From assembly GCA_029204225.1 (NCBI GenBank), contig CM055092.1, positions 26,310,122 through 26,374,121 on the forward strand: a stretch of DNA of 64,000 bases. Direction: 5' to 3'. This DNA comes from Diphasiastrum complanatum. Its lineage: Eukaryota > Streptophyta > Lycopodiopsida > Lycopodiales > Lycopodiaceae. The notes beneath the pieces are model-generated. The model was not told where the DNA came from, searched no databases, and saw nothing but the letters and a program-made list of their open reading frames with translations. The position numbers and the translations under genes were made by a program. How positions within the stretch are numbered: position 1 is the first letter of the stretch; every line of letters begins with the position of its first letter. This document shows, one piece after another, positions 11,986 through 61,800 of this stretch.

Positions 11986-11989
11986 TGAT

Positions 11990-20700: not shown

Positions 20701-21166
20701 TTCTTGTTTGTGAGATACTTACTCTCCGTGAGTCTCATCTGCCTGTACCAGATCACCTGGGGTTAGACTCCCAACAACTGCTTCTCACTGGCTTCTTTCG
20801 TACTCGAGCACATGTTGATGACTCCGATGATGAGATTCCTATCCCTGTGCCACCGCAGAAAAAGCCCAGATGTAGTCGGCACTTGCCTCCATCAGGGCCC
20901 ACTGTACGCTCCACTCAGCGGACAATTCACACTTGCTTTCGCTGATATGTACATATTCTCCACCTGGCCCGGGTTGTGGGCATTGGTACTTTTTCTGTAG
21001 TTCTTTTGTTGTACCTGGTGGACTTATTTCACTTCTGCTTTGTTCTACTTTCATTCGTAACTAGTTTATAGCATTTTACGGCCACGTCCTCCTATGGATG
21101 ATGCTCCCACTGTTGCTTGTACATATTTTCCTTTTGGTCTTATGCACCCACTTTCTTCTTTCTTCT

Positions 21167-21232
<66 letters not shown>

Positions 21233-24200
21233 ACCTGGGTTGCTCGACATATATTATTCTAGCTGTCATGGCGCTCTATGAGAGGGTTTTGGGTTGCTTT
21301 CGTCATAGCAGTGGCATTTCTGAGCATATCCGGAGTACTATTGGGGTTAAACAGGGATGCTCTCTTTCATTAGTTCTTTTTGGACCATACATCGATGAGC
21401 TGGAGCGAGTCATTTCTCAGTGTGGCGGGGACGGTTGCAAGCTTGGTGACATTATGATCGATATCCTTCTATATGCAGATGATGTGGTGCTTGCCTCTCA
21501 TACCAGAGAGGGATTACAGAGACAGCTGGATTGCTTATACACCTTTTGGAAGACCAAAATCATGGTCTTCAATACCTCTCGGGCTTTCATGCAGTGTCAG
21601 GAGCTTACCTTTGATGGATGGCCTCTAGAGGTGGTTTCTTCATATACTTACCTTGGGGTGCTCTTCGTTGGTCCTACTTTCAGTATGAGACAGGCAGCTA
21701 CCTCTAGAGTCGAGAAGGGCCATTCTTCCCTGGTCCAGTTGGACAGATTCTGCTTCCGAAAGTCTATTCAGGATACCCCGAGTAAGTGTAGACTTTTTGA
21801 CACCATTGTCACCCCTTCAGCCATGTATGCAGTAGAGATATGGTGTACAGGCTTCTCCTCCTCACATTGGGCCAGCATTTCATGCTTATAGACCACCATG
21901 CTAGCTCGCATGATTCGAGCGAAACCCTCTGTCCCACATGAGATCATCCTTGCAAAGTTTGCCCCCCCCCCCCCCCCCCCCCCCTATCCAGATAGAGGCA
22001 GCCTTCCAGCTTATCACGTACATCCAGAGAGCTCGGGCACTTCCTGATACAGAGCAGAGATACACACGACTTGCACTCATGTCCTGACACCATCTTCAGA
22101 CTCAGGGATACCGGTTATCATGGTTCTCCCAGGCATCACTGTTATGAGCTCGTAACCAGTGCCGAACCCTAAAGAACACAGATAGGTCAGATACCATAGT
22201 CAGGGTTGTGTCCAGTGTACCAAGGGCTCCCAGTTGGGTCCCGACGTGCAGTCGGCCACGTCAGTGCCACGTGGCCGACACTTGGCAGTAGCATGGTACC
22301 AGTCCTCACATTGGGCTAGGAGGGGCTTACTCTATATCAGGGAGTAGGCAAGGTTGGGTGGATCAGTTAGTGTTTGCCCTACTGTGTTGTTAGGATCTAT
22401 TACACTGGTATCAGAGCCATCTCCATCCTAGGGAGTTCAGGAGCAGCAGTAGAGAAAGCTATCAGAAGATAGGAAAGATCTCTTAGTTTCTCAGAAAAGA
22501 TTATAGGAGGAGAATCGCTGTAGGAGCAGCCTTCAAACTTCTGATTTTCACTGAGAAATCACAGTAGCAAGGAGTCAGATTCCAAGTGTAGGTAGCTCGC
22601 TGGAAAAACAGCTGTTTCTCACTGAGTTCAGAGGATTCTCTATAGTTTTCCCAGCGAAATTAGAGTAGGAAGAAGCCAGCACCTCCATCGCTGTACAGTC
22701 AGAGACCTGCATCTGATTTCCAAGGAAAAATTTACTGGTTCTCAGCGAGTTTGAAGCCAAAAAGGAGGAGCAGGGCCAGCGCTGCCAGTGCTTCTGAAAA
22801 TCTGGTTTTTGGACAAGTTTTCGGGCCCCAACGTCAGAGATTTGGAGCAAGAGGATTCCTACCAGATCAGCGAGCAGGAGACTTCTGAAATTTCAGAATT
22901 CAGAAGGGTTTTTGGACTTCAGATTTGCCATTTTGTGGACAAATTGAGATGCTGTCAGACCAGCGAGGGGGGATAGCAAAAGTTTCAGATCTTGTTGCAC
23001 ATTTTCTAACCTCAAATCAGATTGAGGAAGAAGCTGAGAAGGGCTTTTCTTGATTCTCTCTGTGGAAGTACAGTTCTCAGAAAGAGCTAAGTTTCCTTTC
23101 CCTTGTACAGTTGTAAATTAGTCTTGTAGACTTTTTTTCCTTCAGAAGTTAAGGTAGCTCTCTTTCAGTTCCGAAGATGACCACTCCTCAGGGACCTGAT
23201 CAACCCCCGGAGAGAGGCTTTGACGAACTTGAAACAAAAGCCTTGGCTTACAGAAAAGGGAAGGAACCCATGGAAGTAGAAGAACAGGAATAGTTTGCCG
23301 AAGAACTCGACGAACTGGTTACCAAGGAGCAGTTCCTCCAATTGGTAACAGAAGTGGATGAACTGAAGTTGGCATTAGCCAATTTCAAGTCCAGTGTGGA
23401 CGACTCGTTCGCTGAACTCAAAAACTTGATTTTGAGTTCCGCGAAAGGAAGCCTTCCCTCCACTTCTCAGTTATCCCCTTCTCCACTTCCATCAGTTTCG
23501 GGTGAGACTTTACGGTCTCACCCCAGTGTTTTTAAAGACTTAAAACCTCCTACTTTTAATGGGGAAGAGAAGGATAGAAATGCAGATATTCTACAAACCT
23601 TCCTCAGCAAATGGAAGAACATTCATGCTCTTAAACAGACCCCTGACCATTTGCAAGCTATTGAGGCCAGTCTTTCCTTAGGGCCTATGGCCTATAAGTG
23701 GTGGTTAAATCTCCAGGAGACTGGGCAGACTCCCCGGTCATGGAAAGCTTTTGAAGAAGCTTTCCTAAGAGAATTTCTACCAGAGAATGAACTTGATAGA
23801 GCCTGGGAAGCCTGTGAAAGAACAGTAATGGACAAGTCCCTCATCCAATATATCTCGCAGTATCGAGAAGGCCTACTACCCTTGAGCAAGCTCTCAGATA
23901 TGCTCAAATCTATGATGATTCAGTGGGTAGGAAGAGGGCGAGACAACAGCCACTTTCTGAGCAGCCTTCTCAGAAAGACTTTCAATTTAAAAAGAAATTT
24001 TTAAAAAGAAAGAAAGAAGATAAATTTAAAGGTGAAGCTCCTCAGAAACGCTCTTCACTCATACAGCCATTAAAACCAGATGATTTTGAGAAAGCCAAAC
24101 AAGAACGTTTGTGCTTTGTGTGTATGGGCAAGGGACACACAGTCAGACAGTGTCCCAAGGGGCCTTTCACTAAAAAAGATAAGAAAGATAAAAAACAAGT

Positions 24201-27200
24201 TCATCTTGTTCAGACTGTATGTTTCCCCAGTGACTCGGCAGCTTCCGAGATCAAAGTGTATCATGAAGATCATGAACACTGTTGCCAGCTGACCTCTGCA
24301 ATGCTAGCAAGACCCTTTAGCTTTGGGCCGCATGACCTAGTACGTATGCATGGGAAAGTTGGTAACCAGTCAGTAAGAGTCATGGTTGATGATGGGGCAA
24401 CCCATAATTTCATCAACCACACCCTGGTTAAAAAGCTTAAACTACCAGAAGTACCTAGTCAGCATAGGTACATAGTTTCATTAGCTAAGGGTGAAGATAA
24501 AAAAATATGGGAAACTATGGTAAGTAAGTTAAATCTTGGTATTCAGGGGTACCAAGATGAAATAAACTTTTAGATAATGCACCTGGATCGAACAGACATT
24601 GTTCTCGGGAGAGATTGGCTCGACAGTTTAGGACCTTCCCTCCACAGAAACTATCAGGAGAACACCCTCAGCTTTCAGTATAAAGGCCGAGAGATCCAGT
24701 TGCATGGGGAGCATGATGTTCCCAACAGCCCTATGGACTGCAGTTCAGAGCTCTGTCAGCTAATCGGAGACAAAGACCATCAGGTATTCTTATGTGACTT
24801 TCAGTTTATTCCTGAAGTTTCTATTTCCAGTTCTATTCAGCAGAAAATTAGTAAATTAGAAACTTTATTGTCTAAATTTAAAGACGTTTTTTCTGAAGAT
24901 TTACCACATGGTTTACCACCTAGCAGAGAGGTAGATCATGTAATAAACCTAGTACCAGGTACAGCACCTGTTTCTAAACCTCCGTATCGGGTCAGCCGAA
25001 CAAAGGATGAAGAAATAACTAGGCAGTTAACAGACTATCTTGGGAAAGGCCAAATTCAGACCAGTAGTTCACCATGGGCCTCACCAGTCCTATTGGTGAA
25101 AAAGAAAGAGGGGTCTATGCGTCTTTGCGTAGATTACAGAGCCCTCAATAAAGTCACAATTAAGAATAAATACCCTATGCCTCGGGCAGACGAGTTGTTT
25201 GATCAACTCGACGGGGCTAAGTTTTTCAGTAAAATAGACCTCAGATCGGGATATCATCAAGGCCGTATAAAATTGGAAGATGTCTCGAAAATAGCTTTTA
25301 GGACTCGTCACGGTCATTATGAGTTTAAGGTGATGCCATTTGGGCTCACAAATGCTCCAGCTACCTTTATGACCTTGATGAACAGTGTCCTCAGACCATA
25401 CTTGGGTAAGTTTGTAGTCATATTTTTAGATGACATCCTCGTCTACAGCAAAACGAGGAAGGAGCATCTAAAACATCTCAGAAAGGTGTCTCGACTCCTC
25501 AGAAAGCATAAGCTTTATGCTAAACAATCCAAGTGTGAATTCTTCATTGAAGAAGTAGCATATTTGGGTCACATTATCTCATCAGATGGGATTAAGATGG
25601 GCCTGAATAAGGTTAAAGCCATACTCAGTTGGCTGAGATCTCAGAATATTTTAGAACTTCAGATCTTTCTTGGTTTGGTGGGATATTACAGACGATTTGT
25701 CAAGGAATATGCTCAGATAGCAGTTCCCGTGACAAATCTTCTTAAGGGGAAGGGAAAGGAGTTCATTTGGGAGTCCGCACAGTAGGAGAGCTTTGATGCT
25801 CTCAAAACAGCCTTAGCTACAGCACCAGTTTTAAAAGTCGTCGACCCCAATCAGCCATTTGTGGTCGAAACAGATGCTAGCGACTTTGCAGTAGGTGCTG
25901 TGCTAACTCAGGGTGGACGATCAGTTGCGTTCAAGAGTAAAAAACTCGAGCCAGCTCAGACTAGATACAGTGCCTATGAAAAGGAACTCTTTTCTATAGT
26001 ACATGCCCTTAAGACTTGGAGGCATTATTTGTATGGTGCCAACTTTGAGGTCCTGATAGACCATGAGAGATACCTTTGCAATCAACCTGAGCTTAGAGGT
26101 CGGAAAGCTCGTTGGGCAGAGTTGATGCAAGAGTTTGACATGTCTATCAGATATAGACGTGGAAAATTCAATACAGTAGTAGATGCCCTTAGCAGAATGC
26201 CTATGATAAACGAACTGAGTTTTACTCAGATTCGTAATGAGTTACTCGAGTTCTTGAGAGGGAAATGCCAGCATGATGCATTCTTCTCTACTATCTGGAA
26301 CTCAGTCCAAAGCAGACAATTACAGACTCCAGAACCAGTTCTCGGGGCTGGTGCCAGTTCATCCAAGAATACGGCAGCTTCCGTTGAGGATGATGATGAG
26401 TCCGAGTATACGTCGTCAGATGACGTTGAGGATTCTGAGCCTGTATTACCCAAGCAAACCCCAGTGGTTGAGGGTCAGTTGACTCAAGGATTCAAATGGA
26501 AACAATATTCCATTCAGGATGAGTACTTGCTCTATAGAGATAGAGTATGTGTCCCCAATTCAGAGGATTATAGGCAGCAGGTCCTATATGAATGTCATGA
26601 CAATCCTAGCGCGGGACACCCAGGCATATAGAAGACCTATGAGCTTCTTCGTAGGCAATTTTTCTGGCCCAGTATGAAAAAGGATGTCCATTAGTATGTA
26701 ACCAGTTGCCAGAAATGTCAAGTAAATAAAGCAGAGCGTTTAAAGGCAGGAGGGTTGTTGCATCCCTTAGAAATACCAGCTGGTAAATGGGAGAGTATCT
26801 CCATGGATTTTATAGTAGGCCTGCCTAAAACCCAAAAGGGTAATGACGCTATATGGGTCACAGTTGACCGTCTGACCAAAATGGCTCATTTTATTCCGAC
26901 CAAAACAACCGTTAGAGCTCCAGAGTTAGCGAGGTTGTTTGTAGACGGGCTATTTAAATTGTACGGTCTACCTTCCGGCATAGTCAGCGACCGGGACAGT
27001 AAGTTTACTGGAAATTTTTGGAGGGCAGTATTCCATCATCTCCATACTAAACTTAATATGAGTACCACCGACCATCCACAGACGGACGGTCAAACAGAAA
27101 GGGTAAATCAAGTGCTGGAGGATATGCTTCGTGCATACGTCAGCAAGAAGCAGACTAATTGGGAGGAGTATCTCTCGATATTAGAGTTTGCTTACCAAAC

Positions 27201-30200
27201 ATTCAGCTACGGGATACAGCCCATTTATGCTGATGTACGGTTTTCAGCCACGCTCACCCATAGCTGTAGGGTTTAAACAAGAAAAAGTTGAAGCAGCCAG
27301 AAACTTTTTAGAGGACCTAAACCAAATGATAGAACATGCTAAGCGTAGCATTAGACAGTCCCAGGATCGAGCCAGGCATTATGCAGATCCACACAGACGG
27401 GATGTGCAGTTCTCCACTGGTGAAAAAGTCTACTTAAGAGTCCTAGTTGACTCTAAAACCCTCAAATCAGGAGTGTGTGCTAAGTTGTCTCCAAGGTATT
27501 GTGGTCCCTTTACCATCAGTAGGAGACTAGGCGAGGTCACCTATGAACTAGAACTCCCACACAGCAGTAAGGTTTTTCCAGTCTTTCATGTAAGTCAGTT
27601 ACGAAAAGCCTTAACCAGATCAGACAATCTGGTAGGGGACAGTGTTCTAGTTCTCCCATTGGATCCTCAACAACCTCCACATGAACCAGAGGAGATTCTT
27701 GATAGTAGAGAGACGCAGACTCGTCATACTCTATACCGAGAATATCTGGTTAAGTGGAATGATCAGCCTGTTGAGAATGCCACTTGGGAAAGAGGCAGCG
27801 TCCTTCGCAAGATTTTTCTAGACTTTGTCTTAGAGGACCAAGACGGTTCTTAAGGGGGAGGGAGTGTTACGAGCTCGTAACCAGTGCCGAACCCTAGAGA
27901 ACACAGATAGGTCAGATACCACAGTCAGGGTCGTGTCCAGTGTACATGACCAACAGAGCAAGACAGTGTGAGTAGTGTGCCCCAGCACGGTCCATAGCCA
28001 TGGCGGGCCTAACACAGCCTAGGGACCCTGTCAGCAGGATAGGGCTCCCAGTTGGGTCCCGACGTGCAGTCGACCACGTCAGTGCCACGTGGCCGACACT
28101 TGGCAGTAGCATGCTACCAGTCCTCACACTGGGCTAGGAGGGGCTTTCTCTATATCAGGGAGTAGGCAAGGTTGGGTGGATCAGTTAGTGTTTGCCCTAC
28201 TGTGGTGTTAGGATCTATTACAAAATCACACTTCCTCATGGAGACATTCGGTGTCACTATCATGGATCTCCCATTGGGTACACACCAGTACATTAGACGA
28301 TTTTTATACAGAGCATATCTTGACCGTACTTGGCGACGCCAATTGGGGGTTGATCCTGATTACTACCGGATTCACTTTCTAGGATGCCGCTGGACTCCCA
28401 GTTTTACCTCGATATCTGTCTTCAGGACTATCACACAGTCTCTGCTTCACCTTGGGATAGTTTAGAGTCTCCTCGCACCAGTTGGCTATTGAGACTAGCA
28501 GATTCCAGGGTACACCACGAGAGGAGAGATTGTGCCAGCTATGTTCTTTACATGAGGTAGAGTCCGAGGAGCACTTCATCTTCAGATGCCCCATATACTA
28601 TGCGATCAGAGGGAGATACCACTGCCTGTTCCGGGACATGCCTACCACACTCAGATCACTTATTGCATATGAGGATCCTCGCTGTGTTGTGCTCATGATA
28701 CGTGAGATGGTCTTGCTGCGACAGGATAAGTACCAGTCAGTTCACCAGCCACGTTCTAGCTCTTAGGCTCAGATTACATCATTCTTCTCCAGGAGACGAC
28801 CACACCGAGATCCCGAGTCAAATGATGATGACGATGATACACCACCTCACAGATATCAGAGACAGTGTGTCACTCACAGTCATGTGGCATGCCGCACTAC
28901 CCGCCCTGTTATGAGAGCACACCGTTCTCATCCTCCTAGACAACGACGGCGACGACGACGATCCATACAACGTCATGCTACAACTCTTATCACATCCTTT
29001 TTCAGCAGTAGTACTAGATGATATGTTTCTACTTTGAGTAGCTATTTTTGCTTCCGCTTATGGACAGTCTGTAGTTTATAGTTATTTCATCTTTTATGCA
29101 TAGTTTTCTCTCTTGGAGACGTTTATATATGCTTCCAGGGTTACCACATACTTGATATGTACACTTACTGGTCTTATATGGCTTTTGGCATGGAAAAGAT
29201 GTTAATAAAGCTTTCGTTCTTTCTTTCTCTCTCTCTCGCTGCCGATGCCCAGGATAACTGAGATACAACATCAATCTTGCATAGGCCCAATCAACACCAT
29301 CAATCTTGCATAGGCCCAATCAACACCATCAAAAGTTTTCGTGCATAGTAACCAAACATTTTGCATGTTTTGAGGTGCTTGTGTGGTGTGCATCCTTGAT
29401 TCCATAGCTTGAGGAAAACAATTGCAACAAAACTATTGCTCACAATCTTCGGTAGTGGATGTGGTTTAGGGTTTCAGCAGCGTAGATTGTTTTCAGGTCA
29501 ATTCCAAATGTTTTTAGGTCTCAACCAACGAAGTGTCCCTAAAGCCCTGTTTAACGTCGAACTTTGGACGGACGTTTGACCGTCGATCCGTTCCTCATGA
29601 TGTCTGTTCCCACAGGTTCCTATCGAGGTTGTCCATTGACCGAGACAGACGGCACCTGAAACGGATCCCGTTTGGAGAAACTGGGCCGTCGGACGGAAAG
29701 CTGCAAAACTAGTACATTTCGCGTGACCTAATTGCGTTTCTCTCCCATCGAAGGGCCATTTTGACCAAACGATATCCGAATCGAGCAAAGGCTGGATCCG
29801 TTAGGTCCGTATCGGGTTCACGAACATGTGGACTGTATTCCTGGACCATTTTGGTCAATTTCAAATGTTTTCAGGTCCCGACCGACGAAGTGTCCTTGAA
29901 GCCCTATTCAATGTCAAACGTTGGACAAACGTTTTGGGCTGACCGTCGGTCCTGTTTGTCCACTGGTCGAAATAGACGACACATGATATGGATCCCGTTT
30001 GGGAGAAACTGGGCCGTCGGACGGAAAGCTGCAAAACTAGTACATTTCGCGTGACCTAATTGCGTTTCTCTCCCATCGAAGGGCCATTTTGACCAAACGA
30101 TATCCGAATCGAGCAAAGGCTGGATCCGTTAGGTCCGTATCGGGTTCACGAACATGTGGACTGTATTCCTGGACCATTTTGGTCAATTTCAAATGTTTTC

Positions 30201-33200: not shown

Positions 33201-33464
33201 TTGTGGAAGGGGTCTCCGCGGCATCTGTGGATGGCTCGTCGGCCTCAACACCTGATTCAGCATATGTCTCGAGAATGCGAGTCCTCTCTGCAGGGGGGAT
33301 GAGTGTACAAAGGCCGATCCCATAGTGTCCACCTGTGGGTTGGACTCGCAACCCCCCCAAATGTGCTCGAACCCGAGAGGCGTTCCTAGTGAACTCCTTC
33401 CGACAAAAAGAGCAACGCCACTTTTTGTCATGCAACGCCTTGTCTCAAATGGGAGAAGCGGCCA

Positions 33465-33521
<57 letters not shown>

Positions 33522-36500
33522 AGCACACACAAATCTAATATCTCTCTCTCTCTCTCTCTCCTCCATCTGCTTACCGCCTCCTATGGCACCTAAGAAAAAG
33601 GAGGGTGTTCTTACACCCCCCTCCCTGTTGGACACCCCCCCATCACCGGTAGTGATGGAGGAGCCGTCTTCGGTGACAGAAACTATCAACATGGCTGCCA
33701 TTGACTACACTCCTTCCAAACCTACCGAAAGTCTTTTTGCTTATGATCTTAGTTTTATCCGGCAAGAAATTCTTGGACTTAAGAAACAACTACACCTCTC
33801 TGAAGCTGAAAATAGCAAGTTAGCTAAGGATCTTTTTGGTGTCACGGAACGTGTGGAGCAGCTTGAGCAAGAAAATATATATCTTAAGCAACGAATTGCA
33901 GAAAAAAGTGCCTTGGAGGAGACTTCCAACAAGATCAATAGCTTGGAGAAACAAGTCGAGGAGACGAAAACGTGGGCAGCACTCTTCAAACCGGGTGATA
34001 TGGGCAGCAAACTCTCATCACTCGCAAAACAGGTTGAAGAAACGACATCGATCCTTAAGCAAGGTAATCACTCTCAGATTTCATCTTTTCCGAAGGAAAA
34101 CGATTTGGAGACAGTTTTGGGTGAACAAGCCAGAAGGGCCAAAAAAGCCTTTAACATTAGAGTAAGAGGCATTGCCAATGGTGGAAAACCGTTGGAAGAA
34201 GCTACGGATTTGCTCATTTCCAAGTTATCTCATGTGGCTGACGGTTTTGATACTGCTTGGCGCAGTAAATTTGATGACAATGTTTTGTTTATCAAGTTCC
34301 GCTCGCTTTCACAACGCAATGCTGCCCTTCGGCTTAGGGCAAAGCTTAAAGGTACTTTCATTTATATGGATGATGACTTAACAAATACTCAATGGTTGGC
34401 AAGAAAAAAGATTATCCTTGAAGCGAAAGAGAAAGGGCAAAGGGTTGTTTTTATTGACGGGAAACCGAGATTTTTCGACCTTCCACAATAGGAACTAGGG
34501 GCCCCCGGATATAGAAGCTACCCGAGATCCCCTACCAATTTGAGACTTGGCTTCTGGAATTGTAATGGTTTTTTATCTTCGTCATCAGCCGGAGACTTTG
34601 CTGATTTTATTAGAAAATGCGACATTTTGTTGTTGGCTGAAACTCATGAGTCCTTATATCATCCTCTTCCAAATATACAGGAGTACTCTTGGCATTCTGC
34701 TTTTCGTCCATTTGTTAGGGGAAAAACTTGTCGAGGATCTGGAGGAGTAGCTTGTTTATACAGAGACACCACAGTTCAGATGGTTAAACAAGATCCATAC
34801 GCTCGCTATATTTGGTTACACATTATTGGCTCACTATTGGGATTACCTCAGGACATCTATATAGCTATATGCTATTTTGCTCCACAGACCTCAGTGTTTG
34901 CTGAGTTTGGCGGGGACCCTTTTCAGGCTCTCTCAGATGATATTGCTATCTTTTCTCAGCAGGGTTCCATTTTACTAGCAGGTAATTTCAACGCCCGCAC
35001 AAGCTCTAGACAAACCGAATTTCATGCAGCTACGGATCTTCTCAGGCTTTACCCTTTGGATAAGGGGCTAGACCGGGTATCACAGGATGCAGACACTCCA
35101 GCTACATCTTTCGGGGAGCAATTGATCACTCTAGCAGAGACACACGCTCTTGCCATTTTGAATGGCCTCACACAGTGGCCTTCCTCATCAGCATATACAT
35201 GCTATCCTCATAGTGGAGGACATAGTGTGGTCGACTACTTCATTGGATCACCTGCTTTGATCTCTCACATTTCTGATTTCTCCATCACACCCCCTACCAT
35301 TTCCGATCACTCACTCTTACACATCTCACTTGGTCACATAACCTCTTCTTTGTAAATTTCTTGCTCTCTTCCCACTCATAAACGTATTCCTTTCACCCAA
35401 TCTGGATTCACTAATTACACCACAATCTTATCCCAACTACTCGCTAACTTCCCGTTCATGGCACCAATTGACCAGCAAGCCACTTTTCTCTCTACATCCC
35501 TCTTAGATGCTGCTTCCTCATCCTTCCCCACCAAAACGACATCATCTCACAGAAGTGTTCACAACAGATGGTATGATGCAGAATGCCGCTCTCTTCACAA
35601 TCATGTGACATATGCCAGGTCACACTCCCCTGCCACACTCAAACAATGCCAGAAAGAATATCATAGAACCACCAGAACAAAGAAGATCAAGTACCTACAA
35701 TCACTCTGCCAAAAAATGATCAACTCTTTAGATTCACCCTCCTCCTCTTTTTTCTGGAAACATTTCACCAGACACTCTTCAACATTGGCCCCCATAGCCA
35801 TCGAATCCTGGATCGAGTATGCCACGGAGTTATATACCACGGACTCTCCTCCTACCTCACTCTCACCGAGACCTGACCACTGCTCACTTTTCACCCCTGA
35901 CATGGTTGAAAACGCCATTAAACATGCCAAACTAAATAAAGCCACTGACTATGACTCCTTAAGTGTAGACTTCCTAAAGCCCGTAGCACATCTCATCTCC
36001 CCTTACATTGCTCATGTTTTTAACACAGCTGTTACTTCTGGTTTTCCTACGGCTTGGTGTACTAATATCCTTCACCCCATCCTCAAGGCAGGTGATCCCA
36101 TGAATGTAGGAAACTACCGCACCATTATGATTGGCCACACTCTAGCTAAGATATATGGCTCTATACTACAGACAGTCACTGGATCTTTTGCTGAAACTGA
36201 GGGTTTACACGCTATGGGTCAAGCTGGTTTCAGACCGGGATATTCTACTTCAGACCAGATCTTCATTTTGAGATGCATTATTGAGGAGGCTCGACATCGG
36301 AAACAGAGAATTTACTGTTGCTTTGTGGATTTTCGCAAAGCTTTTGACTCTGTTCCACGACATCTTCTTTTCCAGAGACTGTCTTCACTTGGCTTTTCAG
36401 AGGATACTATTGCTGCGATCATTACTTTATATGAGCGAGTCTTGGCACGTTTCAGAGATGGTAGTGGCTGGTCCTCACAGATACATTCTACCATTGGGGT

Positions 36501-39500
36501 GAAGCAGGGTTGCCCCTTATCACCCACTCTTTTTGCACTATATATAGATGACCTCGAGCGGATTATTCGCGAGGAAGGTGGAGAGGGCTGTCCCCTAGCA
36601 GACATTATTATCCCCATTCTCTTGTACGCTGATGATGTGGTTCTCCTCTCATCCTCTGCAGCTGGTTTACAGAGTCACCTTTATGCTTTACATCACTTTT
36701 GCCAGCGTTGGGGATTGACGGTTAACCTTAAGAAGACTAAGATTATGGTGTTTAACACCAACAGACAGCATATGAGAGATGTGATTTTCTATTATGACGG
36801 GCTACCGATTGAGATCGTGACCTCCTACACCTATTTGGGAGTTCTTTTCTCTGGTCCGCTACTCACTTTTCGACCAGCAGCCACCGCCAGGCTAAGGGGC
36901 ATACCGCTCTTGTGCATATGGAGAGATTTTGCTCTACTTATTATGTGCAGGATCCTGCTACCAGATGCCTACTATTTTCTGCTACTGTCTCCCCAGTTGT
37001 GCTATATTCGGCTGAGACTTGGTGCCCTGATTTATCACGCGATACATGGAGAGATCTTACTCGTATCCAGATTCTCATGCTCAGTAGGATAATTCGGGCT
37101 AAGCCCTCAGTACCACATGATATCATACTAGCCGAGTTTGCTTCTCCTCCATTAGTTGTTGGTGCTATGTTTCAGATCATCACCTTTCTTCACAGGGTAT
37201 CAGATCTAGATACCTCCAGATACATTGTTGCTGCTCTCACTTCATCTTGTACCCTTGCAGATCAGGGAGCCAAGCACTCTTGGTATCGCAGTGTCTCAGC
37301 CCTTCTTCAGACTTGGGGTTTATCCGCACTTGATCTTCCGAATGGAACCCATGCTTATATCAGACAGCAGATGTACCGGAGCTACATACGCACTATATGG
37401 TCACATCCTGATCCAGATAGGGTCAAGCTACATTATTATGGCACACATCTTTTACGGCTGGACGTTTCGGGCTTGCCTATTCTTCCAGTTTATCTTACAC
37501 AGACGCTATCTTTTGGTCTGAGATATCGTATAGGACAGCTTCGAGTCTCTTCTCATCAGCTTGCTATCGAGACAGGTAGATACACAGACACTCCCAGATT
37601 GCAGCGGATATGTCAGCTTTGTTCTCTTCAGGAGGTGGAAGATGAGTTTCATTTCATCTTTCGCTGCCCAGTATACTATGAGATTAGAGGACGATACCAT
37701 TGTTTATACCGAGATATTCCCCTCACGTTGAGCTCCTTCCTCGAGTATCCAGATGCTAGATGTGTGGGTCTTCTTTTGAGAGAGATGTATATTTTACGAG
37801 CTTCACTTCTACCTACGCTTCAGATATGGATTCCAGTCAGGCTCACATTACTCAGTTCTTCCAGAAGCGAGACAGAGTGGATATTTCGGTTGCGGATTTT
37901 GACGTCCCCGTCCGAAGATCGAAGACACAGAGAGTTTCGGCTCGATCCAGTGCTACTAGATCTTCATACGCCTCCCACCAGCCTACATCACGACCCACTA
38001 CTACCATCACTCATTACTTTCAGCTTGCTCGTAGCTAGTTTCCTCCGCGGAGCAGGTGGTTAAGCTCTTGCTTTGTACCCTCACCAGCTGGTGGTCAAGC
38101 TTGGATACTTTTTCTCTTAGAGACAGAGAGATCGATATTTTAGTTTTAGTTTTACTGTCTTTTCATTGGTAAATAAGTCCTTATGCGGACAATGCTTCTC
38201 ACATTTTGTACTCTCTTTTGTCTTATGTGCCCCTGGGCACCAAAAGACGTTAATAATAATAATTCTAATTCTAATTCTCTCTCTCTCTGTCCTCCTAAAC
38301 CCTAAACCCTAAACCCAAGCACACACACCCTAAACCCTAAACTCACACACACACATCATGTCTCACACACACACACACACACACACACAAATCCTCTCAC
38401 ACAAACACACACACAAAATCCTCACACGCAAATCACCACACACACACACACACATGCACGCACAAATCATCTCACACACACACCATCATCTTTCACACAC
38501 ACGCAAATCACAACACACACACACACCCACATGCACACACACACTCTCTCAATCTCTCTCTTTCAAGCTTACCTTTTATGGCGCACATATCTTACGCAGA
38601 GATGGTTTGGGACTTCCTATTAGACCTTTATATCTATCTCTTCCTCTTTCTTTTGGGCTCCGATACAGGTTGGGATAGTCACGAGTCTCTTCGCATCAGC
38701 TTGCTATCGTGACAGGCAGATATTCAGGCACTTCCGAGAGAGTATCGGATATGTCAGGTATGCACATTGGGTGTAGTGGAGGATGAGTTCCAATCTATCT
38801 TCACATGCCCTACATATTATGAGATACGTGGTCGATATCATTGTTTGTATCGGGACACCCCCATTACCCTTAGTACCTTTTTGGAGTATCAGGATCCTAG
38901 ATGTGTCGGCCTTTTACTACGAGAGATGCTTATGTTGAGAGCCTCTTTGATACCTTTGGAGGGTATTAATGATTCTGGCCAACAGCTTATTACTACCTTC
39001 TTTCAGAAGCGCGAGCGTGTTGACCTATCAGATGATGAGGCAGTCATACCAGTGAGGACGAAGGCCTGCGTGCTCAGCCACCACCTCCTGCCAGATCTAC
39101 ACGAGCCTACAGAGCTACCAGAGCTCCTCGACGCCAGCCACAGATCACAGCTTCTATGGGTATCAGACGTTTTTTTTGAGATTGATATTTTATTCTTCCT
39201 TTAACTTTCCTCAGCATAGCAGGCGGTTAAGCTCTAGCACCTGTACCTTCTTCAGAGCTGGAGGTTAAGCTCTTTTATGCTTTTTATGATTCCATGTTCG
39301 ATATGTCTTCTGACTAGCTAGAGAGATTTCTATACTGTTTTTTCCACTTAGACTAGCATTCTTTTATGTTGCCCGACATGGACAGTGCTTCTATGAGATG
39401 TGTACTTATTTCTTATGTGCTGTTGTAAAGCTACCTTTACAAGCTTTACTTCCGGCGCCAGCTATGTCCCCGGCGCCAGCAGCGCCCTTGCTGCTCCCGG

Positions 39501-44511: not shown

Positions 44512-44579
<68 letters not shown>

Positions 44580-50500: not shown

Positions 50501-51378
50501 GACCAATAATAATTCACTAACCAATCAATAGTGGGCCCCTAGGGAGCAAAGCATAAGGTCTGATTGTCAGGTAATATTACAAGGAACAGAGGCCAAGTAA
50601 CTGTTTGTAATATTCCTGTAACCGCATATAACACCAGTGTTTGTGTATGTTGTGCTAGTATCTACGGGTGTGTGCATGCGTGCAGGCGTATGTGGATACA
50701 TGGGTGGGTTGATTGGGTGTTGAGGGGTTTGCGTGTGTGTCTGTGTGTGCGCGCGGGTGTGTCCAGTGCTATAGTGCAGAGATTGGTATCATATAAGGAT
50801 ATGTTTGTTCAATAAGCATCAATTTTCAGCCCTTGCAAAATGCGTGATATATTTTATCTGCTCTGTCAGCATGGTGACAGTCGTACCGATATTCATACGG
50901 ATTCAACTTCTTCAAGGACGGATGCTATTCGAGCCGTTTATGGTCCAGGTGTTGCGAGAGAGCTGGTCTCTGTCACAGCTTCAGATGATGATCCTTCACA
51001 TTCTATTTTCAAGATGGATGGCTACATTTCAAGTGCAAATTACAGTGCTAAGAAAACAACCATGGTTCTTTTCATAAATGGTAAAGGCTTTGTTTCCACG
51101 ATGAGAGAGAGAGAAGAAAGAAAGCTTTATTAATGTCTTTTCCATGCCAAAGGCATATAAGACAAAAAAGTACATATCAAGTGTGTGGTTCAAATAGGAG
51201 CGTGTAAAACGTCTCCGATAACAATAAAGAAAACTCATATGAAGTGTAGCTACTAAAAACAGCTACCAATATCTGATAACTGCTATTAACTGCTAATGAC
51301 AAAATGTAACTATGATGTTGGTGATGGTATACATGTTTATTCTCATCATTAAATCATCAAATCAAATCCTGCTGCCAC

Positions 51379-51444
<66 letters not shown>

Positions 51445-51797
51445 CAAACGGGGTTTCAACTTGTCATGGGAAAAAATTGTAACCACATTTGCTTGTGACT
51501 CTGGAATGCTTAGTGTTGTAATTAAATGCTTGATGCTTGCAGATCGTTTGGTAGAATGCAGCTCCCTCAAGTGTATATATATCAAGTGTGTGGTGCAAAT
51601 AGGAGCGTGTAAAACGTCTCCGATAACAATAAAGAAAACTCATATGAAGTGTAGCTACTAAAAACAGCTACCATCTAATAGCTTCCAATATCTGATAACT
51701 GCTATTAACTGCTAATGACAAAATGTAACTATGATGTTGGTGATGGTATACATGTATATTCTCATCATTAAATCATCAAATCAAATCCTGCTGCCAC

Positions 51798-51855
<58 letters not shown>

Positions 51856-54676
51856 CAAACGGGGTTTCAACTTGTCATGGGAAAAAATTGTAACCACATT
51901 TGCTTGTGACTCTGGAATGCTTAGTGTTGTAATTAAATGCTTGATGCATGCAGATCGTTTGGTAGAATGCAGCTCCCTCAAGAAGGCAATTGAAGTAGTT
52001 TATGCTGCAATTCTGCCTAAAGCATCCAAACCATTTTTGTACATTTCTATTGCCATGCCTCCCGAGCATGTGGATATCAACATTCACCCAACCAAAAGAG
52101 AGGTGAACACTGTATACCTTTTTGATCTGTTTCCTTGAAAGGCTTTTATTTTTCTATGTCAGATCCATTATTTTAAATCTCTTCCTACCATCTTCAGGGT
52201 TACTTAACATCCTCCCTTGTCGGGAATCGGCTACCAGCCTGACAAGGAAGGAGCAAGTCTTTTTAAAAGTGCTGGTCTCTGCACAGCATACAATCACAGA
52301 TCCACAACACTATGTCCCTTCCTACTCACATTTTTCAGCATCATGTACCTATCTGACAAGAAAAAGCAAGGCTCACTTATATTATTTGTGTATGTGACAA
52401 CCTGATATTTTTTATCAATTAAACTATTATGGGAGCAACGATGTACTGGAAACTGTTATGTGCAAAAGTTGTACAACATCTATTATGATGCCATTTCTAA
52501 GGATTGTCTAAGCTAAGCAGCTGATGCTGGATACATTCTGGCTGTATCATCATTCATGAGCTAATTATTACATAAGTTTGTTCACATAAAAGCACCTAAT
52601 GTGTAGGAACCAAGCATCAGGCTTTTAACAGATGGCTATATTAAAATAGAGGCTGTCAAAGATACATGCTTGATAATTTAACTTGAAAGCATCTATACGA
52701 GAGAATCAGCAGACTTTTATGAAGTCTTTTGATGGGTATTCAGTGCATGGCTTTGTAGTGACCTTGCTCTTTCAATAATTGGGATATTGTCTACCGTTCC
52801 ATGAGCTTACAGAACGTGACTGACAGTTTGAAATTTTCTTTTGACGAGCAAATCCACCAAAGGAGCAATGGCTGGGAAATCGAATCTGTGAGTTTAATCG
52901 AGTGAAAATGGCTGTTTGCTTCGATTTCAGGTTAGCTTTTTGAATCAAGAGAGCCTGATTGATAGCATTCAAAAGGCAATCGAAGCAAAACTTATGCAAT
53001 CCAATACAACTCGAACCTTTTACACACAGGTACTGGAGTTGTTTGATTTCAATAGCAAAATACAACAATAAATAAGATTTGTGACTCTATTCTTTCTAAA
53101 TTTTGCTAGCTTTTTTTTTATGGATTAATCCAGCCATATCATCCATTGTCAATCGACAGCTATTTTAGCATGAATACCAAAATACTCCTTATTCTCTCGA
53201 ATACTTCGTTGCAACGTATGTAAGGGGTACAGGATCCAGATAGTCATCCTCCACGTATTTGGTCATAACAACAGCCAAAAATGCCGTATGCAAATGTATG
53301 TGAGCCTTTTAGGGCCTGTATCCTGCCGCAATTCACGTTTTTTGGGCTTTGGCAATCATCTAAAATAAGCACTTTAGAATATAGAGCTCTTTCTTGTGGT
53401 ATTATAGATACACAGTACAATTCTGCAATACATTATCCTAACATAAGCCCTAAAATTTTTAATCAAAATTTGTTTAAAATGTATGTCTTTAGAAATTTGA
53501 AAATTTTGATGACATGGCGTAATCATCCGTATGCTATTCGAAACATTGGTATGCATTTTTGTTTCAAGGTGCTGTATTGAAAACTTTTTCGTATTCTGGT
53601 AAGTGTGTATTGTAGTTAATGCACATTCTCCATGAGAATCAATATTAAAGCAAGAGGACCGAGCAATGTTCAGTCAGAATGTGTTCAATGGGTGCTGAGG
53701 CAAGCAATGCATCTTTCTGTCTAGTATCCATCTGGGCAGATCTTCTGGAATGGATCCTCGAGATCATATAGCACATAGGCTTTCTCACCTTCACTATACC
53801 CAAGGAAGATACACTTCACGCATTTTGCATCAAGTTTCTTCCGCAAGTCCTTTGGTACATGTGCATAGGCTGTGCACCCAAATACACAAAAGCTGCCCAC
53901 TTTGGGCTTGTTGCCACTATACGCTTCTTCAGGCGTGATTCCTTCAACCACTTTGGTTGGGCTTCTATTCAATAGAAAAACAGAAGTTGCTACCACTTCC
54001 GCCCAAAAGGAATTTGGCAACCCCTTTGCCTTGAGCATGCTCCTTGCACACTCAACCATAGACCTGTTTTTACGCTAGCCACGCCGTTCTGCTGCGGTGT
54101 ATGTGGAGCGGCAAACTGTCCCTTTATCCCACATTCCTTGCAAAGGTCTTTGAACTCATAAGAAATATACTCACCACCCTTATCTGACCTGAGAGTCTTT
54201 AGCCTCTTTCCTGTGTGATTTTCCACCAAAGCTTTCCATTGTTTGAAGTATTTGTAAACTTTAGATTTTTGTCTCAGAAAATAGATCCATACTTCTGTGA
54301 GAAGTCATCTACGAAGGTCATGAAATAGTACGCCCCCCCTGCTGATCTGGTCTGCATGGTACCGCACAAATCTGAATGCACATGCTCAAGAATGCCCTTG
54401 GCCCTTTTTCCTTCGGAAACCTTTGCCTTTGTTGCTTTCCTAGCGCACAAGCCTCACATGTATCTGAAGAAGACTTAATGCTAGGAAGATCTACTACCAT
54501 ATTGTGCTTGTTACAGTTTGTAGTTTACAATTGTGTTGTTCATCTTTTTATGCGTAGTGTTTTTTTCTTGGAGACGTTTATATACGCTCCCATGGTTACC
54601 ACATACTTGATATGTACTCTTATTGGTCTTTTATGCTTTTTGGCATGGAAAAGACATTAATAAAGCTTCTTCTTTT

Positions 54677-54726
<50 letters not shown>

Positions 54727-55765
54727 GATGGCTTCATGCGGATCAGTCCCTCGCGCTACTCCCCCATCTACGGCACCCATCCTATACACTCCCTCCAAAT
54801 CAACCGAACTATTTTCCTCATGGGAAGCTGACCAAATGAAAGCAGATTTCTAGCTTTTGAGCACTTGTTTCCTCACACTTTCTTCATGACCAGGGTTGTC
54901 GACTATCGTGGTTCTCTCAGGCATCCCATTTCCTCCTTGAGTCATTTGGTACCTCCATTACAGAGCTCCCCTTAGGCACTCATCAGTATATCACCACGAG
55001 AGGAGAGACTATGCCTGTTGTGTCCCCTACATGAGATAGAGTCCGAGGAGCATTTCATCTTCAGATGCCCCATATATTATGAGATTAGAGGGAGATATCA
55101 TTGTTTATTCCGTGACACGCCTACTACACTCAGAGCACTGATGGGATATGAGGACTCTCGCTGTGTTGCACTCATGCTACGAGAGATGGTGTTGCTGCGC
55201 CAGGATATGTACCAGACAGCTCACTAGCCACATCCTAGCTCTCAGGAACAGATTATGTCTTTCTTCACCAGGACACGGACACGGCCCGACGACGATGACG
55301 ACGACATACCACCTCACCGATGTCAGAGATAGTGTATCACTCATAGTCATGCATCAGTTCACACTTCTCGTCTTGTTACGAGAGTACACAGTTTTCACCC
55401 TCCTAGACGACGTCAGCGACGGTCCATACCTCCTGATACAGCTCGTATTACGTCTTTTTTCAGCAGCAGCACTATATGACACTATCTGATACTACCTTAC
55501 TCTACTCTACTCGTGGCAGCTATCTGATACTATCTGATACTACTCTACTCTACTCTACTCTACTCCTGGCAGCTATTCTTGCTCCCACTTATGGATAGTT
55601 GGCAGTCTGTAGTTTACAGTTATATTACTCATTTCTCTTTTATGCATAGCTTTTTTTTTCTTGGAGACGTTTATATACGCTCCCATGGTTTTCACATACT
55701 TGACATGTACTCCTTTTGGTCTTATATGCCTTTTGGCATGGAAAAGACATTAATAAAGCTTTCTT

Positions 55766-55811
<46 letters not shown>

Positions 55812-58800
55812 GCGATGGTGATCCTCCACCGCTCCTCCATCACCGCCCTCCTCCATGGCCCGAAAAACCAGGGTGAGCCCTTGCTCCCCCAACCCCCCCC
55901 GCCCCCCTCCATCTCCTCCTACCTCATCCTGCACTCCACCTGCTGCCGCCCTCCACCCTACCCCTGCCCCACCGCTCCACCTGCTGCACCTCCCCCACCC
56001 GTTCCACCTGCTGTCGCCCTCTAGCTCTCCCCCTCCACCCCACATGCTGCCTCCGCCCCACCCAATGCCTCCGCACCTGCTGCCTCCGTCCCTGCTGCCT
56101 CCGCCCCACCTGCTACCTCCGCCCCACCGGTTGCCGCCCTCCATTCTACCTCCTCTGCCCCTGCTGCTGCCCTCTCTATTGTTGTGCAACAGGAGCTTCC
56201 CCCTACTGCTGCGCAGCAGGTTCCCCCCCCCCCCCCCCCCCCCCCCCCCTTCTCCTCGCTTCCCACTCCGGCCCTTCTCCTTCATCTCCTGTCCCTTCCA
56301 CTCCCATCCCTGCCAACGCTGCCTTGGACACCCCCTTTCTATCCAACGCAGACTACACCACCTCCAAATCCTTCGAAAATTTTCTAGCCTACCAATTGAA
56401 AGAGCTGAAAGCAGATGTACAAACCTTGAAACTGGAAATCATACATCTACGCATAGAGAACCAACAACTTCGGATAGAAATGGATAACAAGTGTGCTTCC
56501 CAGCCGCAAGCAGAGACAATGACGAAGTTACAAGACCTGGAACAGCAGTTGAGCCAACACAAAGAATCGACCAAAACATGGGCTTCTACTCTCACCAATG
56601 GTAAAGGTACCAGCCCACCTTGGACAGCCGATGGCGGAAGTAAGTCTGCCCCTCTTTCATCGTTCATTTCCGCTACTCTTACGGAAGAAAAACTTTGAGA
56701 TTCCAAGGCTCTCAATAATAGGGTACGAGGCATTGTCGATACCCAAAACGCCATTGAAGAAGCAAAAAGATTTCTATGTACCACCCTTGGACACAATGTA
56801 GATGGTTTTGATACAGCATGGCGCACCAAAAAAGACACCACTACTTTGGTCCTCCGCTTTAAGTCACTTAGGTATCGTAAAGAAACCTTACGGAAAAGAG
56901 CCAAGTTGAAAGACACCAAGATCTTCATGGATGATGACCTTACCTATATACAGGTTGACGAAAGACGTCAAGCATTCCAAACCGCCAAAGCTACTGGAAG
57001 ATGAGTGATCTATCGAGATGGAGTTGTTCGGTACCTCAATGGTACTACATCCGGAAACAGCCTATAGGAAATTGGGGTCCCTGGGCATGGGAGCATCCCA
57101 GGACCCCCTCCACACCACTTGCAGCTTGGAGTATGGAACTGCAACAACATACACTCACCATCCACGGCTGGAGATCTTATCGACTTCATCACAGATAGAG
57201 ATATACTTTTCTTTATGGAGACACTTGAGAGCCCAAAGCGAGGACTACCCACATTTGTAGGCTACAGATGGGATTCAATTTACAGGACAGAGACGCGATC
57301 AGCGAGTGGCAGAGGTTCAGGTGGAGTGGCATGTCTTTATCGGGAGTCATTACAGTCAGCGATAGAGTTTATCCGACATGATGGACAGGCACGATACATA
57401 TGGGTTCACATTGCTGGACGAGCTATTGGTTTGGATAGGGATCTCTTCATTGCTGCCTGCTACTTTCCTCCAGAGTCTTCCTCCTTTGCGGACGGATCAG
57501 GTTTTGTGATCTTTCAGCAGACATTGTCAGATTCACAGATCGGGGTTATGTCCTTCTCACTGGCGACTTTAATGCTAGGACTGCTACCAGACAGGTGGAT
57601 TTTCATGACACGGATGACATCTTACGTACACGAGCTATTGATTGCGAGGACATTGGTATCACCAGGACCTCAGAGGACGGGATGGGCCCTATCAGGAGCT
57701 ATGGAAAGTACCTTTTACAGATGGGTGAAGCTCATGAGTTGGCCATTTATAATGGCTTAGCTTGTTGGCCACATTCTGGCAGATTCACTTGCCACCCACA
57801 CAGTGGAGGACACAGTGTTGTCGACTATCTCATGGGGTGGGTCACCAGTTTTTATCCCACTCCTGTCCGATTTCCAAATTCTTCACACAACCCTATCCGA
57901 TCACTCCTTTTTATCTTTCAGTATGGGCTCCATCCCGACCTTCCAACCACCCATTATTCCACTCATCTCCCGCGCACCCAAGTACACTTTTGATCATTCC
58001 CACATCCATACATACCAGGAGGCCGCCAACTCATTTCTTCGTCGTTTCCCACACCACACACCATTAGAAATACAAGCTACCTTCCTTACCACTTCACTCC
58101 ATAATGCTGCATCATCTTCGTTTCCCTCCAAGCCACATCGACGCCCACCCACTTCGTCACACCCCATCCAACCTCCCTGGTTTGATGCCGAATGTCGTTT
58201 CCTTCATCTCCAAGTCACCCAAGGTAGACTTCATAACACACATTTTCTCCATGCAGCTCGTCGATCTCTCCATCACACCCTCCGCACCAGAAGTAATGAT
58301 TGTATGAAACCCAAAAAGCGAAAAGCTTAGTCAATTCCCTTTGTAGTTCCTCCACTGGCGCCTTCTGGAGGGAATTCATTCCCCGTATTCCACCTCCCCC
58401 CCTCACTGACCTTCATACTTGGACACATACGCCACTATCTTATATACTGTACCCACAGACACACCCATCTCCATCTCTCCCCGGCCGACTACCTTCACTT
58501 TCTTCACCTCGGACATGGTCTTGACGACCATTAAGAGACTGAAAACCCGTCGCACCCGTGATATTGATGACCTCGAATCCGAACTTCTAATCCATGCTGC
58601 AGGCACACTATCACCTACCCTAGCCACCTTTCTCAATCGAGCAGTTGTCTCCGGCTTCCCTTCCTCCTGGTGTACCAACATCATCCATCCCATTCACAAA
58701 ACTGGTGACCCCATGGACCCTGGTAACTATCGCACCATTATGGTTGGGCACATTATTGCTAAGTTATACGGCACCATCCTCCAGTCAGCAGTTAGTTCTG

Positions 58801-61800
58801 AGGCAGAGTCTAGGCGATTACATGCATTGGGCCAGGCAGGTTTCAGGGCACACTACTCCACTACAGACATATCTTCACTCTTCGGGCCATTATTGAGGAA
58901 GCTATACACAGGAAAGAGCGGGTCTACTATTGTTTTGTTGACTTCAGGAAAAACTTCGACTCTGTTCCACAATCCCTCCTCATCCAGCGGCTCTATGATC
59001 TCGGCTTTTCTACTGATACGATCTTGGCAGTGATGGCACTATATGAGAGAGTCCTTGGTTGTTTTTGGAGTGACATCGGCATCTCAGAGCATATCTGGAG
59101 CACTATTGGTGTTAAACAGGGTTGTTCTCTATCTCCAACCCTGTTTGGGCTATATATCAACGAGCTTGAGAGAGTCATTGAGGGATGTGGTGGCACATGT
59201 TGCAGACTGGGGAGTATCTTGATTGCTATACTTTTATATGCAGATGACGTGGTTCTCTTATCTTCTACCAGAGAGGGATTACAACGACAGCTCGACAGCC
59301 TTCATGCTTTCTATAGTAGATGGGGATTAGGGGTTAGCATATTGAAAACCAAAGTTATGGTTTTCAACACATCGAGAGCTTTTATGCAGCGCCAGGAACT
59401 CATCTTCGACAGGCAGCCCTTGGAGGTTGTATCTTCATACACTTACCTTGACGTACTCTTTACAGGCCCTATCTTTGGTATGCGACAGGCAGCTTCCGCC
59501 AGACTTGGGAAGGGCGACGCCTCCCTTGTCCAGTTAGAGCGTTTATGTTTCAGACGGTTTATTCGGGATGCCCCAAGTAAATACCAGCTTTTTGACACTC
59601 TCGTTACCCCCACAACCCTATATGCAACAGAAGTATGGTGTACGGGTCTTACATCATCGGATTGGGCCCATATTTCACGACTGTAGGTTCTCATGTTATC
59701 TCGAATGATACGGGCTAAGTCGTCCGTCCCACACCAGATTATACTGACAGAGTTCGCGGTTCTACCCATACAGCTATCCGCTATCTTCTAGCTTATCCTA
59801 TATATCCAGCGTATCATGTTGTTACCCACAGATGAGCAGAGATATATACAGATGGCACTTGCTTCATCATGACACCTTTATGACCAGGGACATCGACTAT
59901 CATGGTTCTCTCAGGCCTCCCAGGCTCCAGCTACTGGACACACTTGGCATATCTATCATAGACCTTCCATCAGGCACCCATGAGTACATCAGACGCTTTC
60001 TTTATAGAGCATATATGAGACGGACATGGCAGGGGCAGCTCGGGGTCAAACCCGACTATTATAGGACACTTTCTGGAGCTAGACACAGCAGGACTTCTAG
60101 TTTTGCCACACTACCTCACCTCAGGACTATCTCACGGGCTTCGGTTTCTGTTGGGCCAGTTTCGAGTATCTTCACATCAGTTGGCTATTGAGACTGGAAG
60201 CTTTTAGTGCACCCCTCGAGAGGAGCGGATTTGACAGTTGTGCTCATTAGCTGTGGTCGAGTCAGAGGAGCACTTCCTATTCACATGTCCAGTTTACTAT
60301 GAGATCAGAGGGCGATATCATTGCCTTTTTTCGTCAGACACATGTTACACTGCGGTCCCTTATCTCATACGAGGACCCCCGTTGTGTGGCACTTATGCTA
60401 CGTGAGATGTCCCTCTTACGACAGGACCTATGTCAGGCAGTTCAGCATACTTACCCAGACACACAGTCCCAGATTACATCCTTCTTCTCACGCAGGAGAT
60501 CGCGTTCTGATGCAGACATGACTGACAGCGATTGCGACGACATTCCCAGACCCAGGACGCAGAGGCGACGCACCACCCAGCCTCAGGCAACCATGAGAGT
60601 TACACGTCCCACCAGGCCTCCTAGACAGAGATGCACTACATATGCTCATACTCATCGACGACACTAGCATGCTCTAGTGCTTACTGATGTTACAGCTCGC
60701 ATTACATCCTTCTACAACATCAGCACAGTCCTGACTTCTTGACATGGATACATATGATTTTCATGCACATGCTTTTTCATTTATGTATTTATCTTAGCCT
60801 GTACCAGATGTTTTTTCTTTATTACAGCATTGGAGACGCTTTAGACGCTCTCTTGGTTACCACATACTTGACATGTACTTCTTTTGTCTTATATGCCTTT
60901 TGGCATGGAAAAGACATTAATAAAGCTTTCTTTCTTTCTTTCTCTCTCTCTCTCTCTCTAGTCTTCTCCTTTCATTGCTTGTAGGGTTAGGGTATGATCT
61001 AATGTAATGTTTCATAGCTATTCTTGTAGAAATTAGCTTAAGTTGCTCATTTATGATGTATATGCTTCATTGATGCTAAAACTTGTGATTCAGTTCACAA
61101 TTGGAGGAAGTGAACAAGGCGACTTATGAACTCTTTGATCTTCATCAGGATTCACAATTATCAAAATCAAAACATCTCTTGGAACATAAGAGCCACATAC
61201 CTCTGATCAGAGGTTGTGTTAGGCCATTGTTGAGTTATCTTGGAGGTACCAGGGTCCAAATCTCCCAATTCATGATTTGAAGGAAATGTGTTTTGTAGAA
61301 TTTGTCTTGATTTTATGGGCCTATTCCATGTTCATTGTATATATTCTTTGCTTGATAAGAGAAAGGTTTTGTATTGGAGACAAGTCAAAGATAAGCCCAT
61401 GGAGTGTAGAAGCTTGGTAGCTCACTGTTACCATAATGGTTAGTGTCTTTCCTCACTTTGATCCATATGTAAATAGATAGTAATCCGCAATATTGGTGTC
61501 ATGTGGAGTTGGTCTCTCCAACCATCATGACTATTTGAAAGCATATCAGCAAGGTGAAGATGGTGCCCAACTTCATGGTAAGCACTAAAACCTTTCTCAA
61601 ATAACGATTCAAGTTAGAGGCTGCCAAGTGGGCACACTATGCCTTTTCTATGATAAATGATACTTTTAAGAGAGTTCAATGTCACAACATATAGTCCATG
61701 ACACGTGATGCATGATTGAGTTGATGGTCTAAAAGCTTGTGGGGTGAATCATAGAAAGCTGAAAAGTACACATCTTCTTTCATGTTTAAATCCTATTTCT

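Follow-up and report, generated by a model that had tools for sequence, protein, structure and literature searches.

Among the closest described systems, the ORF2 protein (ORF2p) of the human long interspersed nuclear element (LINE) L1 has been reported to bind PCNA, the sliding clamp, and to need this binding for retrotransposition (PMC10830420, PMC7617806, PMC5371812), and the parts of this literature cited here propose that PCNA serves to recruit RNase H2 and to locate target DNA that is suitable (PMC10830420, PMC7617806). How a LINE takes hold of replicating DNA is debated even for human L1, for which two PCNA-binding sites have been proposed. Here we analyzed a 64,000-nucleotide stretch of Diphasiastrum complanatum DNA (assembly GCA_029204225.1, contig CM055092.1, positions 26,310,122 to 26,374,121 of the forward strand; hereafter the window), in which six copies of a plant LINE carry motifs resembling the PCNA-interaction (PIP) box at the C-terminal end of ORF2. 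A sequence-only reading of this DNA had likened them to a PIP box by which human L1 ORF2p binds PCNA; the binding by L1 ORF2p stands as reported, but the relevant section of a 2025 structure paper argues for PCNA binding at a site in the L1 wrist domain (PUB) and not at the PIP box (PMC7617806). The explanation that best accounts for our results, to which we assign a probability of about 0.72, is that ORF2p ends in a low-complexity tail with two PIP-type motifs that would serve as a docking element on the sliding clamp.

The six copies of the LINE C-terminus (A0, A, B, C, E, and F), all on the plus strand, were read by six-frame translation. The motif that the sequence-only reading had placed in each of them (motif 1) was recovered in all six with the same position and spelling: QLLLTGFF in A0 (20775..20798), [TAG]AQITSFF in A (28764..28787), QAHITQFF in B (37838..37861), QQLITTFF in C (38980..39003), QEQIMSFF in E (55243..55266), and QSQITSFF in F (60464..60487). 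The Gln codon of copy A is indeed the stop codon TAG, as had been claimed. A tblastn search of the window, in which the C-terminal region of ORF2 served as query and E values up to 1e-3 were accepted, returned no LINE C-terminus beyond these six, in agreement with the statement that they are all of the readable ones; a weak minus-strand match at 17156-16980 spans an earlier part of ORF2 only. Basic residues follow the FF in every copy, as described, and the acidic run said to come usually after the motif is present in five copies, B having DISVADFD instead. The position of motif 1 behind a CCHC knuckle, asserted for all six copies, needs qualification: the knuckle (C-x2-C-x9-H-x4-C) lies behind the reverse transcriptase (RT) in A, B, and E, its His is replaced by Gln in C, and it is mostly missing in A0.

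For comparison across types, we joined to the window copies three copies read elsewhere in the genome (L010, L049, and L053), giving nine diverged copies. Gln occupies position 1 of motif 1 in 8/9 (the exception being A, with its TAG), and I, L, M, or V at position 4 together with aromatic residues at positions 7 and 8 are found in 9/9. Judged by its sequence, motif 1 is a canonical Qxx[I/L]xxFF PIP-type motif with arginines following.

A second PIP-like motif (motif 2), overlooked in the sequence-only reading, is present at the extreme C-terminus of all six window copies, so that the earlier account was right on the presence of motif 1 and incomplete in recording one of two. Motif 2 lies 39-68 residues from motif 1 and ends 0-8 residues before the stop. 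Translations read to the stop yielded QRTIHTCF in A0 (20916..20939), one residue before the stop; TTLITSFF in A (28980..29003), followed by SSSTR and the stop; TTTITHYF in B (37997..38020), followed by QLARS and the stop at 38036-38038; TARITSFF in E (55438..55461), followed by SSSTI and the stop; and TARITSFY in F (60692..60715), followed by NISTVLTS and the stop. The copy C motif, SMGIRRFF (39153..39176), abuts the stop and comes after a frame break, in a frame other than that of motif 1, and its DNA aligns with motif 2 of B despite the different frame. Elsewhere in the genome, motif 2 is QRTLHTYF in L010, a relative of A0; the two motifs of L049 are QPHITLFF and SHQITQFF; and L053 has QIQITSFF followed, in a shifted frame beside a stop, by an LTSFF core. 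Motif 2 mostly lacks Gln and follows the pattern [T/S]xx[I/L]xx[F/Y][F/Y], with Gln in the A0 type. Among the nine copies, position 4 is aliphatic in all, position 8 is aromatic in all, and position 7 is aromatic in eight. Shuffling of the linker residues was carried out for seven tails, that of L010 among them; for each tail, between 0.14 and 0.84% of the shuffles placed the pattern [ILMV]xx[FYWC][FYW] within the final 17 residues. A stricter form ending in [FYW][FYW] is present in six of the seven tails. The Gln of the A0-type motif 2 may be ancestral and lost in the other types, or it may have been gained here.

Substitution patterns set the motif positions apart from their surroundings. 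In the six window copies, codons 4, 7, and 8 of motif 1 displayed a proportion of nonsynonymous differences (pN) of 0.04 versus a proportion of synonymous differences (pS) of 0.62; the ten codons upstream had values of 0.67 and 0.68, respectively, and the ten downstream 0.57 and 0.79. In the nine copies, with the motif 2 alignment anchored on motif 2 itself, pN/pS at positions 4, 7, and 8 was 0.08 for motif 1 and 0.14 for motif 2, compared with 1.01 and 0.93 for the upstream residues; the x positions gave 0.77 and 0.98. The key codons of these copies have changed at synonymous sites (pS of 0.67 in motif 1 and 1.16 in motif 2) with the amino acids mostly unchanged. Counting the PIP columns of motif 1 themselves, only 3/27405 four-column sets attain their level of conservation, and 2/1140 three-column sets reach the level of the motif 2 set; because the copies are related, neither these counts nor the linker shuffles are probabilities, and the counts stand as rankings. 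Positions 4, 7, and 8 of both motifs are under purifying selection. The sequence-only reading had proposed selection on the pattern amid varying surroundings and had named beforehand the result that would speak against it, namely PIP positions no more conserved than their neighbors. This comparison was run across the types, and the motif survived it: the PIP positions are under purifying selection while most neighbors drift.

The tail was placed within ORF2p by way of copy B and its relatives. Copy B has the organization of a LINE with an APE-type endonuclease, with endonuclease and RT in one ORF2. On the plus strand, an ORF1-like frame of 411 aa from stop to stop, with no Pfam match (33256..34491), precedes the endonuclease domain (34540..35355; PF03372, E 2e-13) and the RT (35458..37092; PF00078, E 6.7e-34), which share one reading frame with one stop between them; the C-terminal region containing the knuckle (37467..37790) provided a motif-free query. 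The RT matches structures of both R2 and L1 ORF2p. When the genome was searched with the copy B query, the best 150 of 17118 candidates were scored, the window copy included; an identical 108-aa stretch was found at 150/150 of these places, and 66/150 lie in open frames spanning 1181 aa or more. All 20 of the B-type tails read, which were hand-picked before the tails were seen, carry QAHITQFF and TTTITHYF in a single open frame to the stop, and at L011 one frame without interruption links the endonuclease end, the RT, the knuckle, and both motifs. Because both motifs are in frame with the RT at L011 and are kept in 20/20 B-type tails, the tail belongs to ORF2p in a recently expanded family. 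The identity and long open frames of the B type point to a very recent burst, although some places may be assembly duplicates. In the six window copies the tail, taken as the 20 residues ahead of motif 1 and everything from there up to the stop, is 76-112 residues long, low in complexity, rich in arginine, and probably disordered. We regard it as a real tandem-PIP tail on ORF2p that is under selection and probably binds the clamp.

A genome-wide sample of a second type was obtained by using a C-terminal stretch of copy A that ends before the motif, for which the best 150 of 15260 candidates, 84-100% identical, were scored. Forty were hand-picked before their tails were seen, with duplicates omitted, and every other one was read, providing 20 loci of 100 bases each; these reads end short of motif 2. 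Eighteen of the 20 loci had a tail (L057 and L061 had none), and 16 of the 18 tails keep QxxIxxFF. Positions 2-3 differ by subfamily (QAQ, QPQ, QPL, and QSL), and at L059, L066, and L068 motif 1 lies in a different frame from the upstream stretch. The pN/pS ratio was 0.12 at the key positions, 0.68 upstream, 0.63 downstream, and 0.41 at the x positions; the per-column table includes the rows without a tail (L057 and L061), which raises pN and yields a pN/pS of 0.72 at the Gln. Arg is frequent behind the FF, at the second (17/23 rows), third (18/22), fourth (18/23), and sixth (19/23) residues. Overall, 50 tails were readable (six from the window; L010, L011, L023, and L024; L049 and L053; 20 of the B type; and 18 of the A type), and 46 of them have an intact motif 1. 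This count includes near-duplicates of B (L011), A (L023), and A0 (L024). The matches L009, L011:9167, L050, L057, and L061, five in all, had no readable tail and were dropped.

PCNA is the likeliest partner of the tail, judging from its motifs, with Rev1 or Mlh1 possible. A search for PCNA_C, the only PCNA domain sought, located three exon-like pieces in the host genome at C8:61562047-61563156, and contig C498 carries these three as well. The spacing and residue classes of the motifs fit the PIP box, and the motif 2 flanks are positively charged in five of the six window copies, that of F being slightly negative. In the sections of Prestel et al. cited here, PCNA-binding motifs are mostly situated in disordered regions and flanking charge tunes their affinity, positive flanks raising it over four orders of magnitude and motifs with negative flanks being likely non-binding (PMC6881253). 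The proposal in the sequence-only reading that this LINE recruits the clamp through its C-terminal tail has partial support: it draws strength from the selected PIP pattern, the continuity of the tail with the RT, and the PCNA_C exons of the host, and is weakened by the overlap with Rev1- and Mlh1-binding motifs and by the neutral flanks of B and C. A PIP degron was rejected as a separate candidate: it needs T-D at positions 5-6 with a basic residue at +4, and Asp is found at position 6 in 0/9 copies.

If the tail acts as a clamp-docking element, it would bring the ribonucleoprotein, or the enzyme already engaged in target-primed reverse transcription, to PCNA at replicating or repairing DNA. 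Docking could favor primed or flapped target sites, could hold the enzyme in place through cDNA synthesis, and could supply RNase H2, polymerase, and ligase for the second-strand steps. It is speculation that two motifs on a flexible tail could fill two of the three PCNA subunits and so raise avidity. The most specific form of the proposal, a dedicated bivalent tail that would engage two subunits of one PCNA ring and tie retrotransposition to replicating DNA independently of the mammalian L1 route, is put forward tentatively, at somewhat less than even odds.

Several observations weigh against clamp docking by two PIP-type motifs. Position 1 of motif 2 is T, S, or F in 7/9 copies, A0 and L010 being the two with Gln, and because of this lack we call it PIP-like and not a canonical PIP box; in A0 it also has Cys in place of an aromatic residue at position 7 and fails the strict aromatic pattern. 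The Thr at position 5 of motif 1 is conserved like the Gln across the nine copies, the sole outsider of equal rank. Within the A-type sample, Ser at position 6 (21/22 rows), Thr at position 5 (20/23), and Ser at position -1 (20/22) are conserved like positions 4, 7, and 8, so that PIP positions conserved beyond most neighbors are a finding across diverged types, and within this sample some neighbors are their equals. The A-type picks came only from rows with no stop inside the query stretch, which leans the sample toward less decayed copies, and all tail comparisons are confined to one species. Four of the 50 tails lack an intact motif 1, namely A and its near-identical duplicate L023 (both with TAG), L058 (TAG for Gln and one Phe lost), and L062 (FF lost); decay is expected in dead copies. 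The net charge per residue of the motif 1 flanks is +0.36 in A and +0.21 in E and F, but neutral or slightly negative in A0 (0.00) and in B and C (-0.07), and from the results of Prestel et al. weaker binding is predicted for motif 1 in B and C. Finally, PIP-like motifs overlap with those that bind Rev1 and Mlh1.

That overlap underlies a rival explanation, in which the tail would contact a different genome-maintenance hub through its conserved short linear motif, either the Rev1 C-terminal domain (a Rev1-interacting region, RIR) or Mlh1 (a Mlh1-interacting protein, MIP, box), with PCNA as a secondary partner or no partner at all. The RIR and MIP patterns leave the Gln at position 1 (8/9) and the aliphatic residue at position 4 (9/9) unexplained. 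An RIR requires residues following the FF, and motif 2 ends 0-1 residues past position 8 in C, A0, and L010, leaving no room for them; behind the FF of motif 1, several non-proline residues do occur, which speaks for this rival. ELM 2020, in the portion cited here, treats PIP, RIR, and MIP motifs as related, often with a double-aromatic core, and has many of them binding at least two hubs. On balance, we regard Rev1 or Mlh1 as the principal partner as unlikely.

The motifs might instead be kept for the fold of the protein itself, or for a contact between ORF2p and ORF1p or RNA, with no host hub involved. Conservation by itself names no partner, an arginine-rich tail could touch RNA, and the plain PIP consensus demands neither the conserved Thr at position 5 nor the A-type Ser at position 6. 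Yet both motifs have, at their key positions, the spacing and residue classes of a known host-hub motif, while the upstream residues of the tail drift freely and the inter-motif length varies, which makes an internal role of this kind quite improbable. The copies might also be alike only through recent shared ancestry, or through constraint on the DNA of the LINE 3' end, without selection on the protein. Over the 108-aa stretch the scored B-type copies do not differ, and constraint on the RNA can act at the 3' ends of LINEs; against this, the synonymous sites of the key codons have changed (pS of 0.67 and 1.16) and the amino acids mostly have not, and upstream pN is about equal to pS. We give this explanation very little credence. 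Mere recent descent was rejected on those synonymous changes, and a chance origin of the motifs was rejected on the column-set ranking and the linker shuffles.

In A0, B, and F the reading frame is broken on the way from the knuckle region to motif 1. In C it is broken twice, immediately ahead of the knuckle and again between the two motifs, and motif 2 of C and L053 sits in a frame other than that of motif 1. Besides the TAG of A, the tail of E contains two in-frame stops and that of F one. The preferred reading of copy A is a single LINE (21226-22144 plus 28235-29003) split by a Ty3/gypsy element with a chromodomain (22223-28222), whose flanking repeats of 182 bases (22223-22404 and 28041-28222) are 97% alike. 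Near-identical second copies of B, A (with the same TAG), and A0 are located within 200 kb to the right of the window (L011, L023, and L024, respectively), and those of A and A0 are inverted, a pattern suggestive of a segmental duplication that is local and inverted, or of an artefact of the assembly. The LINE 3' ends run into short TAA or TCTAAT-type repeats (B at 38250-38300, and L011), and CT microsatellites also occur there; these repeats and microsatellites (38250-38300; L010, L011, and L024) perhaps represent a 3' tail or a target preference. Other repeats in the window include tandem-like arrays at 29570-31230, 41402-41905, and 51258-51982 (spacings of about 327-362, 252, and 411-419 bases, respectively), a repeat pair at 39421-39797 and 43244-43629, whose members match at 100% along 300 bases, are separated by about 3.8 kb, and possibly form the ends of a young element, and Ty1/copia-type fragments (gag, integrase, and RVT_2) at 1459-4393 on the minus strand and at 11511-12071.

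No relatives turned up in the viral contigs and genome contigs scanned, a PDB sequence search with the short motif peptides returned no match, and open-access literature linking PIP motifs or PCNA to LINEs, to plants, or to transposons contained no description of a PIP motif or PCNA binding in a plant LINE that we could find. A phmmer search with the region before the RT found no LINE structure to align, and we make no claim that an L1-type N-terminal PIP is absent.

Compared with known systems, the D. complanatum LINE resembles human L1 in having an ORF2p with a link to PCNA, reported as binding in L1 and predicted here. It differs from L1, in which the PIP box is a helix (residues about 404-419) between the endonuclease and RT, whereas here two motifs are present, both past the knuckle in the C-terminal tail. 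PIP motifs have also been described on other mobile-element enzymes, including those of plants, and the passages cited list pogo, Tigger, Lemi1, and a putative case in maize Ac/Ds (PMC5371812); these, however, are DNA transposons and not LINEs. Cellular PIP boxes such as that of p21 share the short motif with arginines nearby, as described in part of PMC6881253, but they are not doubled on a retrotransposon, and the motif 1 flanks here are approximately neutral in A0, B, and C. A LINE lineage whose C-terminal tail bears two motifs this short and portable would make the hold on replicating DNA a question approachable with peptides. By analogy, the tail could fulfill roles akin to those of PCNA binding by L1, through a different part of the protein, and if so this would point to more than one origin of clamp recruitment among LINEs.

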